Shown piece by piece: positions 17,815-25,946 of a stretch of 42,781 nucleotides of DNA. The first letter of the stretch is position 1, and each line of letters begins with the position of its first letter. A program made the position numbers and the translations under genes. The stretch comes from Ignavibacteriae bacterium HGW-Ignavibacteriae-4 (GTDB taxonomy: Bacteria; Bacteroidota; Ignavibacteria; Kapaibacteriales; UBA2268), in NCBI GenBank assembly GCA_002839765.1, contig PGYR01000019.1, positions 1 to 42,781 of the forward strand, read 5' to 3'. Below the pieces are notes generated by a model. It did not search any database. It saw only the letters and a list, made by a program, of their open reading frames with translations, and had not been told where the DNA came from.

Positions 17815-18516
17815 ATGTTAGAATTATCTTATATACTACTTACACTTATTATGAACTTAATTCTAGCTGGAATAGGATTCTACGCTATTAATAAGTCAAT
17901 ATCTGAATCAGTAACTAGGAAAAAGAAAAAGGCAACGGTAGTAATTGGATTAATCCTCTGGCAAGTTTATGTTTACTTGCTTTCTAAATCTGGGTTCTTA
18001 GAAAACCTAGATTTTCCACCTCGGTTCGTATTATTCCTTATACTTCCACTCTTCATTTTCACTGGGGTATTCCTTTACAAAAACAGAAACGAAAAATGGA
18101 TAAAAGTCATTCCACCGCATTGGCTTACTTATTACCAATCATTCAGAATTGGGATAGAAACTATATTCGTATATACAGTTGCAGCTGGTATTTTACATAC
18201 TAACGTAACAATTGAGGGCTATAATATGGACTTATTATATGCCCTATCTGCACCGGTAATAGGAACAAAAATATATAAGAAAGGTATGCCGACTGGAAAA
18301 TTCATCAGAATCTGGAATTATCTTGGTCTGACTGTAATAGCATCTATTATATTCCTTTTTATTACTTCTATGTATGCACCGCAATTATACGGAAGTGAAG
18401 TCGGACTTTTATCTACTAAATTGGGAACGTATCCATTCACATTGGTAGCTGGTTTCTTGATGCCATCGGCAGTGTTTATACATGTATTATCACTAGTACA
18501 AGCAAGAAAGAGTTGA
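17815..18516 (+). CDS. Polytopic membrane protein of unknown function
   Basis: 233 residues with about six or seven membrane helices (for example LSYILLTLIMNLILAGIGFYAI, VLFLILPLFIFTGVFLY, LTVIASIIFLFITSMY and FTLVAGFLMPSAVFIHVLSL). No transporter signature is recognised. It is 8 bp downstream of the MarR gene and 67 bp upstream of the TonB-dependent receptor, so it is likely a target of the MarR protein and an inner-membrane partner in the same process. Confidence 0.65.
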   Translation: MLELSYILLTLIMNLILAGIGFYAINKSISESVTRKKKKATVVIGLILWQVYVYLLSKSGFLENLDFPPRFVLFLILPLFIFTGVFLYKNRNEKWIKVIPPHWLTYYQSFRIGIETIFVYTVAAGILHTNVTIEGYNMDLLYALSAPVIGTKIYKKGMPTGKFIRIWNYLGLTVIASIIFLFITSMYAPQLYGSEVGLLSTKLGTYPFTLVAGFLMPSAVFIHVLSLVQARKS

Positions 18517-18583: not shown

Positions 18584-20629
18584 ATGAAATATATTCTCAT
18601 ATTATTACTATTGATAACTGTCACTGGTTTGTACGCACAAGACAGCACGACCACTCGTGATTATCCAACTTTCCGATTGGATGAAATAGAGGTAACCGAT
18701 TCGCGCACAGGAATTGAACTCAAAGATCTCGGAAAACAAGTCGAGGTAATTACTCAATACGAAATCAGCCAGATGCCTGTCAACTCCGTAGATGAGCTAC
18801 TCCGCTATATACCCGGTGTGGAAGTCCAGAGCCGAGGAATGTACGGCACCCAAGCCGATATCACAATGCGTGGCGGTACATACAACCAAACACTAATCCT
18901 CCTTGATGGTATTCGTATAGGCGACCCGATGACTGGTCATTTCAATAGCAATATACCAGTTTCGCTATCCGCTATCCGCCGAATAGAGATAATCAAAGGA
19001 GCAGGCTCCGTTATCTATGGTGCTGATGCAGTCGGTGGTGTGATTAATATAGTGTCTAAAAATGTTGGAGGGTTTATAAAAAAGGGAACACGTCATTCTT
19101 ACTGTGGTCTAGGGAATTACTTGGCTCGTGAAAAATATTTAGATAATAGAATAGAAGAACAGATAAAAACAATGGATCTTGGTTTATCTGTAGGTCAGTA
19201 TTCTACTTTTGCCGGTAAATTGTATGGTCTTGCTACGTTTGGTGGTGGAGGTTTTAACCTTGAGTTTTCGTATGACCATTCTGAGTCTTATGGCTACCCT
19301 GCATTTAACAATACACATAACTATAGTTTTGATATCCGTAACTTTGGTACATCGTTAAACTTTGAATTGAATGATAAAGACTACTTAGCCTTTCGTTTTT
19401 CAAAAGATTCTAGAGAATTTGATGCTCGATATTTTTATACTGCATCATCTTTCGATAAATCGAAAGAGAAAGTAGAAAGGTATTTTGGGCAAACAAAATT
19501 GAGTATTGGTAGCTACAAAGGGCATGATATAACAGCAAATCTGGGTCTTATATATACTACAGATGATTTTGTTTTTAACCCAGATTTTACATCAAATAAT
19601 CACAAGACAATAAGTGGTGATATGAATATACACGACCAGATTAAGTTAGGTGAAAGCACGGCAATGACGTTCGGAACAGAGTTGCAGTTCAATAATATGC
19701 GAAGCACAGATAGAGGAAACCGTAGCCAACAACAGCTAGGAATATATGCGGTTGGAGTACATGATTTCAGTTCAGAATTCAATATAAATACGGGGCTTAG
19801 GGGAGAGTATTTACCAACTAATAATTGGGAAGTAGTACCGACTATTGGTGCGAATTATTACTTAACCGACAAAATAAAATTAAGAGCAAATGCAGGCCGT
19901 TCTATCCGTACTCCAGACTATACCGAGCGATTTGTTTCAACTGGATTAGAAGGAATACTTTCTGCAGGCAGAAACTTAGGAAATCCTGATTTACTACCAG
20001 AAATATCGTGGAACTATGAAGCTGGAACAGATATACAATTAGCTCAGAAAATATCTCTAAACGTAACGGGATATATGCGAGATTCGAAAAACATAATAGA
20101 CTATGGCTTCAAGAAAGGCAGTGAGATTACTAATAATCAGAATCTAGACCCAACTTTTGATTATCTCTACGCTCAGAACTTAGCTGAACTGCAAGTTAAA
20201 GGGGTAGAATTTAAGATAAGTGGATTTGAAGGTGTTAGTATAAAGACTTTCAATTGGTATGTAGGTGGTAATGTATTGGATATCTCTGTTGCCGATGATG
20301 CGAGTTCTAAGTATATTACCAACGCTGCAGGATTGAATTTTTCAGCGGGGTTGTTCTACATCATGACGGATTATCTAAAAATTGGTACAGATGCAATTTA
20401 CCGCAAACGTGATGTAACACAAGACCAATCACAAGAGTTTGGGTTGACTCCAGAGTATTTTGTTATGGATAGTAAATTGATCTACAAATATAATAAGATG
20501 TTCAATTTCGATTTAACAGTTAAGAATATATTTGACAAGGAATATTCTGATATATTGGGTGTGCAGTTACCTGGGCGTTGGATTATGTTAGGCGTGAGTA
20601 TATCTGACGATATGTTTATAAGGGAATAG
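18584..20629 (+). CDS. TonB-dependent outer-membrane receptor
   Basis: 681 residues. A signal peptide (MKYILILLLLITVTGLYAQ) is followed by a plug domain (DEIEVTDSRTG, then SVDELLRYIPGVEVQ, ITMRGGTYNQTLILLDGIRIGDP and SAIRRIEIIKGAGSVIYGADAVGGVINIVSK). A 22-strand type barrel then ends in LLGVSISDDMFIRE-like residues. The length fits BtuB/CirA-type receptors for siderophores, cobalamin or similar ligands. No riboswitch is visible upstream, so cobalamin control is not indicated. The order MarR - membrane protein - receptor suggests one regulon. Confidence 0.9.
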   Translation: MKYILILLLLITVTGLYAQDSTTTRDYPTFRLDEIEVTDSRTGIELKDLGKQVEVITQYEISQMPVNSVDELLRYIPGVEVQSRGMYGTQADITMRGGTYNQTLILLDGIRIGDPMTGHFNSNIPVSLSAIRRIEIIKGAGSVIYGADAVGGVINIVSKNVGGFIKKGTRHSYCGLGNYLAREKYLDNRIEEQIKTMDLGLSVGQYSTFAGKLYGLATFGGGGFNLEFSYDHSESYGYPAFNNTHNYSFDIRNFGTSLNFELNDKDYLAFRFSKDSREFDARYFYTASSFDKSKEKVERYFGQTKLSIGSYKGHDITANLGLIYTTDDFVFNPDFTSNNHKTISGDMNIHDQIKLGESTAMTFGTELQFNNMRSTDRGNRSQQQLGIYAVGVHDFSSEFNINTGLRGEYLPTNNWEVVPTIGANYYLTDKIKLRANAGRSIRTPDYTERFVSTGLEGILSAGRNLGNPDLLPEISWNYEAGTDIQLAQKISLNVTGYMRDSKNIIDYGFKKGSEITNNQNLDPTFDYLYAQNLAELQVKGVEFKISGFEGVSIKTFNWYVGGNVLDISVADDASSKYITNAAGLNFSAGLFYIMTDYLKIGTDAIYRKRDVTQDQSQEFGLTPEYFVMDSKLIYKYNKMFNFDLTVKNIFDKEYSDILGVQLPGRWIMLGVSISDDMFIRE

Positions 20630-20638
20630 GGACTTAAC

Positions 20639-20700
20639 CTTTATACCTTTTAGTATAAAATAATTTATACCTTTTGGTTTTATACCTTTTGGTATAAAAT
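20639..20700 (+). repeat. 62-bp direct repeat, left copy, made of three palindromes
   Basis: The repeat holds three 22-bp units of the form TTTTATACC-N4-GGTATAAAA starting at 20639, 20663 and 20678. The third is a perfect palindrome with 9-bp arms. It matches 21839-21900 at 48 of 62 positions with the same internal spacing (24 then 15 bp). It lies between the TonB receptor stop and the stop of the ATPase gene. Confidence 0.8.
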
Positions 20701-20706
20701 AAATCA

Positions 20707-21837
20707 TTACGCAAATTCCCTTCTGAACCACAACCCAAATGCTGGGTCTAAGAATATATAATCATTTTCACTTTGGTGGATCAAATCCTTTTCCATTAGA
20801 ACATTTCTGTTTTTTGTTACGTTGTTGGGGCTTCCCAGATCATACTCATCCATTGTTGATTTGCTAGTTAGCTGCTCTTCATTATTAGCAATTGCCTTTA
20901 GTAGATTAAGCTGTGTTCTGCTGATACTACTAGTTTCAAGTAGATAATATGGTGAGTTAGTAGTCAATAATTCATCTATAGCTTCTTCGAGGTTACGGTT
21001 AGTCGCTTTTCTATTTGTGTTCAGCCAAGTATAATGCGATAATTGCTGTACGTACCAAGGGTGATTATCCATTGCCTCAGCTATAGATTTTGCAAGCTCT
21101 GGAGTAATTTCCTTTTTCGTATTAGCGAACCCCTTAACAATAAAGTCAATCCATTTTTTTGTGCTGATTTTGGGTAAAAGAATTATATCCCCAAAGCGAT
21201 AAAAAGGACGTGAAGAATTATCAAATATATCAAGCATCATGTGCCTCATACTACCGTACAGACAGTAAGTGACATTAGTCTGCCGTTGCCAAGCCGAGCG
21301 CATTTTCTTCTCAAATTGTTCGAAATTATCGAAAGAAGCTAAGTTCTGAAATTCATCTATACAAATAACGAATTGTATATTCCTTTCTTCAGCAAGTTTC
21401 TGAGGTAAATCGAGTATTTCTTTTATATTTTTTGCTGGCTGATTCCAATTGAACTGCAAGCTAAAATCTGTCATTGGCTCAACCCCCAATGATATAGAAG
21501 GAGTAATAGATTTCAATAGATTCTTAGCGGAATCAATCCAATCGTCTAGCTTATTGGATGAAGCTTTGACAATCTCGCTAGCGAATACTTCGAGGAATTC
21601 TCTTTGAGAAGATGTTGCAAATAAGTCGAGGTTAACGACTTTGATTTTCGAATTTTTGTTAGCTATTTGTTTTGATACTTTTTCTACAAGTGAAGTCTTG
21701 CCCCATCGGCGAGGAGAAATAATCATCGTATTGATATTATTCAGTAGATTACTTTTGAGTCGTTTTATTTCATTCTCGCGGTTAGTGAAGGCAGCATCAC
21801 TAACTGTCACGCCATATACGAAGGGAGACTTTTTCAT
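20707..21837 (-). CDS. Archaeal-type AAA/STAND ATPase with C-terminal winged helix
   Basis: 376 residues. The Walker A region is SPRRWGKTSLVEKV near 41-54, and Walker B with sensor is FVICIDEFQNLASF near 156-169. The rest follows the archaeal ATPase_2 (STAND-like) group. Residues about 305-376 look like a winged helix (ISRTQLNLLKAIANNEEQLTS... to LDPAFGLWFRREFA). The gene lies exactly between two 62-bp direct repeats, leaving 6 bp at its 3' end and 1 bp at its 5' end. Such ATPases are common and patchily distributed in Bacteroidota and archaea, with no agreed function. The winged helix may bind the flanking palindromes. Confidence 0.8.
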   Translation of the reverse strand: MKKSPFVYGVTVSDAAFTNRENEIKRLKSNLLNNINTMIISPRRWGKTSLVEKVSKQIANKNSKIKVVNLDLFATSSQREFLEVFASEIVKASSNKLDDWIDSAKNLLKSITPSISLGVEPMTDFSLQFNWNQPAKNIKEILDLPQKLAEERNIQFVICIDEFQNLASFDNFEQFEKKMRSAWQRQTNVTYCLYGSMRHMMLDIFDNSSRPFYRFGDIILLPKISTKKWIDFIVKGFANTKKEITPELAKSIAEAMDNHPWYVQQLSHYTWLNTNRKATNRNLEEAIDELLTTNSPYYLLETSSISRTQLNLLKAIANNEEQLTSKSTMDEYDLGSPNNVTKNRNVLMEKDLIHQSENDYIFLDPAFGLWFRREFA

Positions 21838-21838
21838 A

Positions 21839-21900
21839 TTTTATACCATTTACTATAAAATTTGTTTTACCAAAAGGTATTATACCATTTGGTATAAAAC
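21839..21900 (+). repeat. 62-bp direct repeat, right copy, covering the ATPase promoter
   Basis: Three units start at 21839, 21863 and 21878, with the same 24/15-bp spacing as the left copy. The last is TTATACC-N4-GGTATAA. The offset between the two copies is exactly 1200 bp. It sits directly upstream of ATG 21837, so it must also overlap the ATPase leader, which suggests operator use as well as a boundary role. Confidence 0.8.
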
Positions 21901-21945: not shown

Positions 21946-22221
21946 TTACTTCTTCTTATTTATCTCGTATTCGCGGCGGGTAACTTCGTCCATCAACTTC
22001 TTGGACTTGCTGAGTAGTAGGTTGTAGTTTAGTCGTTTGTCTAGGTCACCCAGAACTTCGTAGGCCTCCTTTATCTCGCCGAATACACGTTGTACTTTCT
22101 TATCATCGGGATGCAAATCGGGGTGGTATTTGCGAACCAAACGCTTGTATGCCATCCGAATTTCATTGGAGGTGGCAGAGCTTTCTAGCCCAAGTATTCT
22201 ATAATAATTTTTGATTTTCAT
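21946..22221 (-). CDS. Short J-domain (DnaJ-like) protein
   Basis: 91 residues. A J-domain fills residues 4-65 (NYYRILGLESSATSNEIRMAYKRLVRKYHPDLHPDD...FGEIKEAYEVLGD), including the HPD motif that stimulates Hsp70 ATPase activity. The G/F, zinc-finger and substrate-binding parts of DnaJ are absent. A lysine-rich tail ends the chain. It lies 35 bp downstream of flhA on the same strand and may be co-transcribed, which could link an Hsp70 function to flagellar export. That link is only positional. Confidence 0.85.
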   Translation of the reverse strand: MKIKNYYRILGLESSATSNEIRMAYKRLVRKYHPDLHPDDKKVQRVFGEIKEAYEVLGDLDKRLNYNLLLSKSKKLMDEVTRREYEINKKK

Positions 22222-22256: not shown

Positions 22257-24395
22257 TTATTGTGCAGGTTCAAGAATATTTACGCTACTTAGTATTTCTA
22301 TATCTGTATCAGAAGGTAATTCTGAATAGCTGATAACGCTAACAACAGGGAATGTAGTCTGTATCATTTTCTTGAAATATGGTCGCACTTGAGCTGAGCA
22401 GATAACTACTGGCAGATGCCCTGCTATAGTAGTATCGTCAATAGCTTTAGATACCCCCTCTTTGATACGAGTTATATACTCGGGCGATAGTCCCATAGAT
22501 GGACTTATCTGGTTACCACCACTCTTTTGCAGTGATTGAGTAATGCTATCTTCTATCTCTGGGTCTAGTGAAATAGCATGTACTATACCATCTACATCTT
22601 CGTAGAGTGTTTTGATTGTCTCTGATAGATTGTGGCGAACGTATTCGGTCAGCACATCTATATTCTGAGTTACTCTATAATACTCGAGCAATGATTCTAA
22701 TATCAAAGGCAAATCTCGAATCGGTATCCCTTCTTCCAATAGGTTTTGTAGCACTTTCTGTATAGTAGAAAGTGGCAGATTATCAGGAGAAATCTCATCC
22801 GTCAAAGCAGGATAATCTTCTTTCAGATTATCAACTAACTGCTTAGTATCTTGTCTAGTTAATAGCTTATCAGAGTTACGTTTTAGTATTTCGGTTAAGT
22901 GAGTAGTCAGCACCGTCGCCGATTCCACAACTGTGTAGCCCATTATCTCGGCATTCTCACGCTCATTTTGGTCTATCCACTTAGCTGGCAAACCGAAAAC
23001 TGGCTCTGTTACGTGCTTACCACGTAGCTCACCCTCAGCAGTTCCGGGGTTCATTGCCAATAGCATATTCGGAAATAGGAAATTGGAAGCAACTTCATTC
23101 CCACGAATTTTGATTATGTAATTCTCAGGGTCTAATTGCAGATTGTCTCGCACACGAACTGGTGGGAGGATAATCCCTAGCTCTGTTGCTAACTGCTTAC
23201 GGACGTTTGTTATTCGCTTGAATACATCTCCACCTTGCGCCTCATCTACGAGAGCAATTAGTGAGTAGCCAAGTTCTATTTCAACTGGATCAACTTTTAA
23301 CAAGTCTTCCACAGGTGATTCGCTTGGTTTTTCGACTTCATCTGCTGCTTGTAAACCTTCGCGAATCTCATCATCAGCTTTGTTTTTAATTGCATTAGTT
23401 CTATTGTAAGCGATAGCCGCAATTACCACTGCTATTAGCGTAAACGGGATAATTGGGAAACCGGGCAATAGTCCAATTAGGAACAAAGCCACAGCCGATA
23501 CATACATCGCCCTTGGCTTAGCACCGAATTGCTGACCGAATTCCGTTTCCAATTGGTCACGAGCACCCGAACGAGTAACAACCAAACCACCTGCAACTGA
23601 TATCAAAAGTGCTGGTATTTGAGATACTAGACCATCACCAATAGTAAGTGTTGAGTAAGTAGATATCGCTTCGGAAAACGACATATCACGTTGGAGCATA
23701 CCAATAGCGAACCCACCAATCAAGTTGACGATAGTGATAATAATACCAGCAATCGCATCACCTTTTATAAACTTAGCAGCACCATCCATTGACCCAAAAA
23801 AGTCAGCTTCGTGTGCTAATTCATCACGTCTAGACTTAGCCGTCTGCTCATCTATATATCCAGCGTTCAAATCAGCATCTATACTCATTTGTTTACCTGG
23901 CATAGCATCCAAAGTAAACCTTGCAGAAACCTCTGCAATACGAGTAGAACCCTTGATTACAACTATGAAGTTAATAACTAATAGGATTAGGAATATGATA
24001 ATCCCTACAACTATATTACCACCAACTACGAAATCACCGAAAGCGTGTATAATCTTTCCGGCTTCCCCCTCTCCTAATATAAGCCGAGTGGAGGCGACGT
24101 TAAGTCCCAACCGGAGCATAGTAGTAATTAGTAGAATAGCTGGGAAAGCTGAAAATTCAAGAGGTCTGACCAGATAAACTGCCACCATCAGTATCATAAC
24201 CGATAGTGCTATATTCAGCGTTAGAAATAAATCTAGCGCAAAAGGAGGCAACGGCAATAATAGAAGTGCAAGAATAAGTAATATACCACCAGCTAAAACA
24301 ATATCGGGATTGTTAAAGATTGGTGAAAGAACAGTATTCTTCAATCTGTTTAAAGTTGGGTTATCTAGTAGAGCCAATTGTCTATTTATAGCCAA
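22257..24395 (-). CDS. flhA: Flagellar type III export gate protein FlhA
   Basis: 712 residues, normal for the family. The N-terminal half has about eight membrane helices with the FHIPEP signature region (YLVRPLEFSAFPAILLITTMLRLGLNVASTRLIL). A conserved cytoplasmic loop follows (STRIAEVSARFTLDAMPGKQMSIDADLNAG...DFFGSMDGAAKFIKGDA). The C-terminal half is the soluble platform that docks chaperone-substrate complexes. The only usable start is TTG 24395, because TGA lies in frame just upstream. No other flagellar gene is in view. FlhA rather than a virulence homologue is favoured by overall pattern and length. Confidence 0.92.
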   Translation of the reverse strand: MAINRQLALLDNPTLNRLKNTVLSPIFNNPDIVLAGGILLILALLLLPLPPFALDLFLTLNIALSVMILMVAVYLVRPLEFSAFPAILLITTMLRLGLNVASTRLILGEGEAGKIIHAFGDFVVGGNIVVGIIIFLILLVINFIVVIKGSTRIAEVSARFTLDAMPGKQMSIDADLNAGYIDEQTAKSRRDELAHEADFFGSMDGAAKFIKGDAIAGIIITIVNLIGGFAIGMLQRDMSFSEAISTYSTLTIGDGLVSQIPALLISVAGGLVVTRSGARDQLETEFGQQFGAKPRAMYVSAVALFLIGLLPGFPIIPFTLIAVVIAAIAYNRTNAIKNKADDEIREGLQAADEVEKPSESPVEDLLKVDPVEIELGYSLIALVDEAQGGDVFKRITNVRKQLATELGIILPPVRVRDNLQLDPENYIIKIRGNEVASNFLFPNMLLAMNPGTAEGELRGKHVTEPVFGLPAKWIDQNERENAEIMGYTVVESATVLTTHLTEILKRNSDKLLTRQDTKQLVDNLKEDYPALTDEISPDNLPLSTIQKVLQNLLEEGIPIRDLPLILESLLEYYRVTQNIDVLTEYVRHNLSETIKTLYEDVDGIVHAISLDPEIEDSITQSLQKSGGNQISPSMGLSPEYITRIKEGVSKAIDDTTIAGHLPVVICSAQVRPYFKKMIQTTFPVVSVISYSELPSDTDIEILSSVNILEPAQ

Positions 24396-24728: not shown

Positions 24729-25946
24729 ATGTTACGTGTAAATTACAATATTCAATTTAAAAATAGAAAAGTATCTCCTATAATCATTTCTATTACATGG
24801 AAAGGACATAGAATACAAAAGTCTATTGGACAATCTATTGAAACTACTAATTGGGATTTCAAAAAGAATAAAGCAAAATCCACTTTTAAAGATGCTGTGA
24901 ACTTTAATGCTTATCTACAAAACATTGAATCTGCATTACAGAAATATTATTCTGAATCATCCAGTTATGGTAAAGTAATTAATAAGAGTAAGGTAAAGAG
25001 CATATTAATTGAAATACTTAATAATGGTATAGTAGAAGAGAATAAGAATGTAGGGGTTGTTAAAACATTTGAGAGATTTCTTAAAGAATATAGAGTTGAT
25101 GGAAGTAAATTAAGAGCTTCCACATTAGTTAATTATCAGAGTTGTAGAAATAAACTAAAGCTATTTGAAGAAAGAAAAAAGACTAAACTTCAGTTTGACG
25201 ATATTACTTCTCAATTCTATAACGAATTTGTTGATTTTCTTTACGAATCTAGTAGCAATAATACTGTTGGCTCAATCATTAAGAATCTAAAAACTTATAT
25301 GAAATGGGCTGAGAAAATGAAATTTCATAATAATACTGATTATAAAGAATTTAAACCACCATCAGCTGAACCTTCATTTAGCATAGTGTTAACTAAAGAT
25401 GAGTACGACAAGATTTTAGAACTAGAGACAAACAAACCATCACTTGAATTTGCCAAACTATTTATGATAGTCAACTGTAGAATTGGATTAAGGTCTATAG
25501 ACTTGATTGAAGTAATAAAAGAATTTGAGATAAACTCTAATAAGATCAGATTTTTTCAAACTAAAACAAGCTCACTGCAAACATTAATAATTCCAGATGA
25601 TGTAATTAGTATGATTAGAAGATTAAAAGAGTTGTTTAGTGATGGATTAAGTAGAGACTATATTAATAATAATCTTAGGGAAATTGGAAAGATGGTAGGA
25701 ATGAACGAAATTGAAACTTCTGTTAAATTTTATGGTTCTAAACGTGTTATTGTTAAAAAGCCAAGATGGAAGTTACTAACTACACACGTCGGAAGAAGAA
25801 CATTTGCCACAAGAGCTATGGAAAAAAGAATACCTATTCATATTATAATGGAGTTTACTGGTCATAAAACACTAGCCTCATTTCAAAGATATGTGAATCC
25901 TGCTAGCTATGATAACAAAGATATACTAAGTCAATTGTGGAAATAG
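24729..25946 (+). CDS. Tyrosine recombinase (integrase) of the island
   Basis: 405 residues. An N-terminal arm-binding domain (about 1-100) and a SAM-like core-binding domain (110-205) precede the catalytic domain. The active-site set is visible: R255 in RIGLRSIDL, K279, H353 and R356 in THVGRRTFAT, H379 in TGHK, and nucleophile Y388 in FQRYVNP. The architecture is that of Bacteroidota transposon and phage integrases. No tRNA gene is next to it, so the target is probably intergenic. It is transcribed toward the island interior. Confidence 0.92.
   Translation: MLRVNYNIQFKNRKVSPIIISITWKGHRIQKSIGQSIETTNWDFKKNKAKSTFKDAVNFNAYLQNIESALQKYYSESSSYGKVINKSKVKSILIEILNNGIVEENKNVGVVKTFERFLKEYRVDGSKLRASTLVNYQSCRNKLKLFEERKKTKLQFDDITSQFYNEFVDFLYESSSNNTVGSIIKNLKTYMKWAEKMKFHNNTDYKEFKPPSAEPSFSIVLTKDEYDKILELETNKPSLEFAKLFMIVNCRIGLRSIDLIEVIKEFEINSNKIRFFQTKTSSLQTLIIPDDVISMIRRLKELFSDGLSRDYINNNLREIGKMVGMNEIETSVKFYGSKRVIVKKPRWKLLTTHVGRRTFATRAMEKRIPIHIIMEFTGHKTLASFQRYVNPASYDNKDILSQLWK

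Follow-up and report, generated by a model that had tools for sequence, protein, structure and literature searches.

The window analysed here, a stretch of 42,781 nucleotides from Ignavibacteriae bacterium HGW-Ignavibacteriae-4, contains on the minus strand at positions 20707-21837 a gene for an ATPase of 376 aa, recognised from its open reading frame and its match to PF01637 (ATPase_2). The gene is bordered by two direct repeats of 62 bp, one downstream (left, 20639-20700) and one upstream on the promoter side (right, 21839-21900), neither of which is assigned to a strand. The repeats are identical at 48 of the 62 positions, are offset by exactly 1200 bp and share the same unit offsets of +0, +24 and +39 (units at 20639, 20663 and 20678 in the left array, and at 21839, 21863 and 21878 in the right one). 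Six bases lie between the left repeat and the end of the gene, and a single base between the right repeat and its start. The original prediction had described both the repeats and a gene filling the space between them almost to the base, and was accurate in this; its three palindromes per repeat appear somewhat generous, since units 1 and 3 match well as palindromes (7-9 of 11 pairs) but unit 2, taken in a 22-bp frame, does so weakly (5-6 of 11).

On the left the unit is followed, outside its border, by a gene for a TonB-dependent receptor (18584-20629, plus strand), and on the right by the minus-strand genes of a DnaJ-domain protein of 91 aa (21946-22221) and of a large protein that we take to be FlhA (22257-24395), which served as a landmark of the site. 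A tyrosine-integrase-like gene (24729-25946) adjoins the latter; the FlhA flanks of the three sister genomes, covered for up to 1.5 kb, did not show its N-terminal part, and no link between this gene and the ATPase was found. The repeat unit itself is local. The 22-bp unit has four matches in the window at up to three mismatches, all at the ATPase locus, where shuffled sequences lead one to expect 0.06. In the 3.36-Mb draft genome its 20-bp core, at up to one mismatch, occurs at three places at the locus and at one stray position on another contig, and at up to three mismatches the core is not enriched (62 matches versus 70 for the backward control). This led us to reject a palindrome family dispersed through the genome.

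The match of the protein to PF01637 scores 41.7 bits against a curated cut-off of 33.2 and covers residues 17-266 and the complete profile (1-225 of 225); of the seven ATPase_2 matches in its own genome it is the sole one above the family cut-off. The protein contains the motifs PRRWGKTSL and ICIDEFQ, which we take to be Walker A and Walker B, and G46, K47, D161 and E162 are invariant in 13 of 13 relatives. The closest named record, a protein from a metagenome-assembled genome of an Ignavibacteriae bacterium, is 98% identical. Among the PADLOC profiles only partial and weak matches were obtained (PDC-S01, 3.8e-5; PDC-S20, 1.9e-4; mad8, 1.1e-3), and other profile libraries gave weak or partial ones; a match to PF24389 (ORC-CDC6-like) was weak and below the cut-off. 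A sequence search identified 2qen as the single solved relative (E 5e-4). The AlphaFold model, built from four sequences and with a mean pLDDT of 60, is reliable only in its C-terminal part, which forms a winged helix (residues 300-376, encoded at 20710-20940 on the minus strand; block pLDDT 82-94). The helix of residues 337-349 (20791-20829, minus strand) is presumably the recognition helix. The fold matches found with VIA-align were the nucleotide-binding regions of NLR proteins (Z up to 9.9), 2qen (8.6), 2fna (7.8) and ORC/Cdc6 proteins (7.4-7.6); these matches extend mainly over residues 178-376, and according to the tool a Z below 8 may mean just a common arrangement.

The ATPase is patchily distributed. 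It was found in 12 of the 123 genomes of the order (E<=1e-30), and at E<=1e-40 in 42 of 395 genomes in a sample of the phylum and in 55 of 391 in a sample of the class, two samples that overlap. An origin from phages or plasmids was rejected, as relatives were found in only two viral contigs, 18 plasmid records and two "phage" records, all below 60% identity; both "phage" records look bacterial by gene content. Inspection by eye of 11 larger regions, judged from the beginnings of the proteins, revealed no constant partner gene, the neighbours varying by site. In one genome (G237) a Type ISP restriction-modification gene (L142, 3765-6941) overlaps the end of the ATPase gene. In genus g109 the ATPase is the first part of a far longer open frame (loci L060-L067, of which one has an internal stop). 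The fusion that could be read furthest, 1580 aa before it is cut by the contig end, contains ATPase_2, a TIR domain (PF13676, 1.2e-9), a second P-loop region with weak AAA_22 and nSTAND3 matches, and WD40 repeats. The g109 fusion gene (L140, 1397-6136) has an upstream array of its own, of the TTATTA type. The TIR/WD40 fusion hints at immunity-like signalling, and we would guess that in the cell the ATPase takes part in a defence-like response, as its regulator or as a sensor.

Solitary relatives in the phylum repeatedly carry an array at the start-codon end of the gene. When the 110 bp upstream were tested for all 68 genes with enough flank (including loci L019, L058 and L063), repeat structure was found at p<=0.05 in 41, compared with 14 of 59 downstream flanks and 10 of 73 flanks upstream of control genes from the same loci; the median ratios of observed to expected repeat structure were 2.92, 1.01 and 0.96, respectively. 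An earlier version of the test, with 200-bp flanks, gave 11 of the 13 loci of the order at p<=0.05. By eye, repeated upstream dyads appear to be present at all 13, with sequences that differ between loci (TATACC-N4-GGTATA, GTTAGTAAC, TTACG/CGTAA, ATTACGA and others). The spacing of the dyad centres is shared: in 87 genes with 95 bp upstream, after removal of near-identical proteins and of L219 and L220, a distance of 15.0 bp occurred in 20 and one of 14.0 bp in 12, where 1.2 were expected for each. Several site classes contribute to these two spacings, and there are additional upstream peaks (e.g. at 7.0, 7.5 and 22.5 bp). Downstream, 15.0 bp was found in 2 and 14.0 bp in 1 of 77 genes. The shuffled controls kept dinucleotides in the repeat and spacing tests and in the first of the two batches of the framing test described below, and single bases in the second. 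A promoter element TAnnTTTG upstream was rejected as too weak (13 of 62 genes versus 5.5 expected, at varying positions). The 27 of the 68 genes that lack significant repeat structure in the 110-bp test count against the explanation that we favour below, autoregulation through the array.

Several loci deviate in the layout of their dyads. At L022 a very long array of degenerate ACGTA-type sites, recognised by eye, extends across more than 200 bp upstream of the ATPase. At L212, L213 and L214 dyads of the GGCGTTACGC..GGCGTAAT type directly follow the stop codon and none were seen upstream; L059, with a similar dyad type, has its dyads upstream instead. The dyads could in principle be hairpins in the leader RNA, or weak terminators, and a sequence such as TATACC-N4-GGTATA could form a short hairpin; however, many arrays consist of dyads with little or no loop, e.g. 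TTACGTAA, and what they have in common is their spacing, so that sites in RNA are the least probable of the readings weighed here.

The multi-site arrays adjoining the gene, together with the combination of an AAA+ domain and a winged helix, the sub-threshold PF24389 match and the presence of ORC/Cdc6 among the fold matches, also recall an ORC-like initiator with its boxes. In that case the gene and array would serve a replicon, present or former, as its origin of replication or as its partition site. We regard this as very improbable: no replication genes adjoining the ATPase were recognised by eye in the 11 larger regions, the arrays lie at the start codon in the manner of operators, and the Z values for ORC/Cdc6 are in the range that may reflect a common arrangement only.

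In contrast to the upstream array, the frame of two repeats is rare. The upstream array recurs as a direct repeat behind the gene in the window and in G080 (at the same site) and at L056 and L130, which makes 4 of 54 genes (p 0.005), and at L211 in a second batch (1 of 26 genes, with L192, L197 and L209 left out for their short flanks). In total 5 of 80 genes are framed; they represent four distinct sites, whose site sequences are unrelated, and the orientation is always direct. The offsets between the array copies are 1200, 1199, 1190 and 1210 bp for the window, G080, L056 and L130, and about 1195 bp for L211; as the length of the gene fixes most of the offset, the spacing of about 1.2 kb is in itself not strong evidence. 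Terminal repeats as a general feature were rejected, since most relatives have the array upstream only; among the relatives carrying the ATPase an array on one side only is thus the rule, and the frame from which the original prediction started is the exception. No recombinase belonging to the unit was found. The ATPase is the sole gene between the repeats and the arrays stand in direct order, which led us to reject a DNA transposon or insertion sequence. Direct duplications of the flanks on both sides of the ATPase were observed at L130/L179 (362 bp, 91%), L203 (138 bp, 86%) and L206 (about 150 bp). Duplication of host sequence beside the gene was set aside: flank matches were found at 14 of 68 loci versus 2 of 32 controls (one of these two being itself an ATPase gene), and several of these 14 matches consist only of the arrays or of tandem repeats at the locus.

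The site of the window can be compared between four genomes of the genus, which share the order TonB receptor, site, DnaJ, FlhA. The gene is present in the window and in G080, and G082 and G081 have no protein match. Sites that are empty but keep a copy of the repeat were indeed found: G082 retains one three-unit array, which is related to the downstream array of the window and identical at 61 of 62 positions to the downstream array of G080, and G081 retains a single palindrome. FlhA identity to the window is 0.88 for G081, 0.84 for G082 and 0.80 for G080, and hence the presence of the gene does not follow FlhA distance. The dyad is absent from all 26 FlhA loci fetched outside the genus (30 loci were fetched, of 49 genomes with a match). 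Between the window and G080 the ATPase differs at 0.33 of the 4-fold sites (42 of 126), compared with 0.59 for FlhA, 0.48 for the TonB receptor, 0.48 for the gene at 17815-18516 and 0.44 for DnaJ (11 of 25), which suggests either exchange after the species split or constraint. The differences by codon position (13/2/87) are as under purifying selection. The promoter-side arrays of the two genomes are identical at 61 of 62 positions and the downstream arrays at 0.88.

The gene comes and goes among relatives, plausibly by recombination between the arrays. The site at IleS gives a different picture: two relatives of G375 (L097 and L099) lack, by eye, both the gene and the array, and two others (L092 and L093) have a different gene in the gap. 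A search for empty sites corresponding to L130 and L056 gave no relative at a useful distance that shares their neighbourhood, and at the LeuS site of G067 the two relatives are too different to define a clean empty site.

These observations bear on the suggestion in the original prediction of a mobile unit with terminal repeats. Here the arrays would be the working ends for integration and excision, with the ATPase as the guide and an enzyme supplied in trans. The gene-less sister sites, the direct framing at three sites besides that of the window, all with unrelated sequences, the low divergence of the ATPase relative to its neighbours and the patchy distribution are what such a unit would leave behind. 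The small proportion of framed genes, the absence of a recombinase from the unit, the IleS site that is empty without an array, the single site occupied by the gene in the species of genus g92 that were compared and a spacing that follows from gene length all speak against it, and we consider this reading unlikely on balance. A variant would be a minimal one-gene element, in which an ORC/NLR-like ATPase controls its own spread via its borders and the array is both operator and landing or exit site. The direct framing at four unrelated sites and the gene-less sisters with an array or palindrome are compatible with it, but we regard it as doubtful.

Similar palindromes also occur away from the ATPase. 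The double dyad TACC-N4-GGTATWATACC-N4-GGTA, at up to one mismatch, has 11 sites in 6 of the 395 genomes; nine of them adjoin this ATPase and the remaining two lie inside reading frames elsewhere (backward control 0). The exact pattern was found at 51 sites distributed over 48 viral-contig stretches (L223-L270), where the backward pattern had 3 and a base-swapped palindrome none, and the ATPase is encoded in none of the 48 stretches examined. A coding explanation of the viral double dyads was rejected as a general one, as only 1 of the 51 sites lies in an open frame of at least 100 aa. In three stretches (L238, L269 and L270) a gene that presumably encodes an HNH endonuclease is flanked by two double dyads, 1506 bp from one another. 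Palindromes without the gene, whose common occurrence the original prediction had named as an objection to itself, thus exist in G081 and G082 and, in the form of this similar double dyad, in the viral stretches.

The sequence of the array was also compared with that of the protein. Mean array similarity rises from 0.055 for pairs with a winged-helix identity below 20% to 0.236 above 70%, versus just 0.045 to 0.084 downstream (61 genes, after dropping L019 as a near copy, L058, L063 and L128 as broken or cut, and L082, L083 and L085 as distant or of uncertain start). In the same set, however, the correlation with the ATPase domain (r 0.47) is as strong as that with the winged helix (r 0.45), so that ancestry alone could yield it and the reading part is not identified in this way. 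Within the presumed recognition helix, N339 goes with TATAC/TTAGTAA sites in 10 of 10 classed genes and S or T339 with CG sites in 28 of 32 (Fisher 7e-7), where 12 of the 54 N or S/T rows fall in a different class or in none, and the other 7 of the 61 rows carry residues besides these; K342 goes with an AC-N4-GT dyad (9 of 16, versus 1 of 45). A family-wide code of residues 339 and 342 was nevertheless rejected, since tree-aware pairs were not significant and the independent changes are too few to separate a code from ancestry. For this reason only the case of genus g92 was used.

In genus g92 the gene is present in five genomes and its upstream flanks resemble each other; in the four whose sequence extends far enough, the downstream gene is the same as well. 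Two species have arrays of the TATACC type and three of the CATACC type. In residues 300-352 the CATACC trio groups together (0.87-0.93 within the trio versus 0.69-0.78 to the TATACC pair), whereas in residues 1-299 it does not, L209 being as close to L123 (0.89) as to L208 (0.88) and less so to L207 (0.76). The array lies upstream and the winged helix is encoded at the opposite end of the gene; they therefore co-segregate independently of the part in between. In these five sequences of one genus the type of array follows the winged helix at the C-terminus rather than the ATPase domain.

The winged helix of STAND proteins can serve within the protein instead of binding DNA. The winged helix could work inside the ATPase only, as in the NLR-type STAND proteins, with the arrays being read by another host protein. 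The best fold matches are indeed the nucleotide-binding regions of NLR proteins, and array similarity tracks the ATPase domain no less than the winged helix. But where a genome contains several copies of the gene, their site sequences differ (G375, G040, G229 and G404; in G441 two of the three copies have no clear site class), and in genus g92 the array co-segregates with the winged helix. We therefore consider a separate reader improbable.

The explanation that we favour, and consider probable from the comparison of sequences, is that the ATPase binds its own promoter array through its winged helix and regulates itself, so that a solitary gene travels with its own control region. It is supported by the upstream arrays, their shared spacing and subfamily-specific sequence, the co-segregation in genus g92, the winged helix of the model and the gene-less sites, and also by the near-identity of the promoter-side arrays of the window and G080 in the face of the 4-fold-site divergence of their genes. 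Of the two options in the original prediction, a winged helix that binds its own borders is thus the better supported, with the amendment that the array generally lies on the promoter side rather than at both ends. The STAND-like ATPase gene would carry a row of dyads at its promoter, with centres often some 14-15 bp apart, to which several molecules would bind side by side through their C-terminal winged helices. The bound protein would control transcription of its own gene and thus its own level, and the nucleotide state, i.e. ATP binding and assembly, may switch the bound form. The subfamily-specific site sequence would let several such genes coexist in one genome. Recombination between two rows could explain the gene-less sisters that keep one row or part of it; a doubled array would ease loss of the gene in this manner, and may or may not ease its gain.

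ATPase_2 proteins are widespread and, to our knowledge, mostly without an assigned function. Promoter arrays with a common spacing and a subfamily-specific sequence offer a handle on the DNA that each of these proteins most likely reads, and the two variants in genus g92 represent a natural experiment for recognition. If autoregulation through the array holds true, the ATPase would be a bacterial example of a STAND-like protein whose winged helix binds DNA in an ORC-like manner, and the TIR/WD40 fusion may tie it to immunity. In the titles and abstracts listed by searches of the open-access literature we found no description of such arrays at ATPase_2 genes.

The archaeal proteins SSO1545 (2fna) and PAB2304 (2qen) belong to the same Pfam family and are among the fold matches listed above; the accessible parts of the open-access literature yielded no report of arrays at their genes. 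Origin recognition boxes are found at archaeal Orc1/Cdc6 genes, and these initiators share with the window protein an AAA+ ATPase, a winged helix and repeated dyad sites adjoining their own gene. They differ in that the window gene shows no sign of an origin and has its arrays at the start codon, and the relation in sequence is limited to the PF24389 match. For the mycobacterial regulator IniR, which has an ATPase domain predicted to be SSO1545-like, promoter binding has been reported, but as far as described in the accessible text IniR is a protein of 818 aa with MalT-like and LuxR-like parts and acts on another operon, iniBAC (PMC5760070). The NLR Rx1 is a STAND protein that has been compared with Cdc6/Orc1 and binds and bends DNA; it is a plant receptor and, in the part of the report available to us, has no gene-side array (PMC4599002). 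BrxR (PMC9122589) and CapK/CapS (PMC13373217) are, by the accessible accounts, autoregulated DNA-binding repressors of defence islands that control immune genes at promoters. They are separate regulators of multi-gene systems, whereas here a single protein, without a constant partner gene, would be both regulator and ATPase. On this comparison the protein would most resemble the SSO1545-type ATPases and the arrangement an ORC gene with its boxes, with IniR as the nearest likeness for a regulator and Rx1 for a STAND protein that touches DNA.
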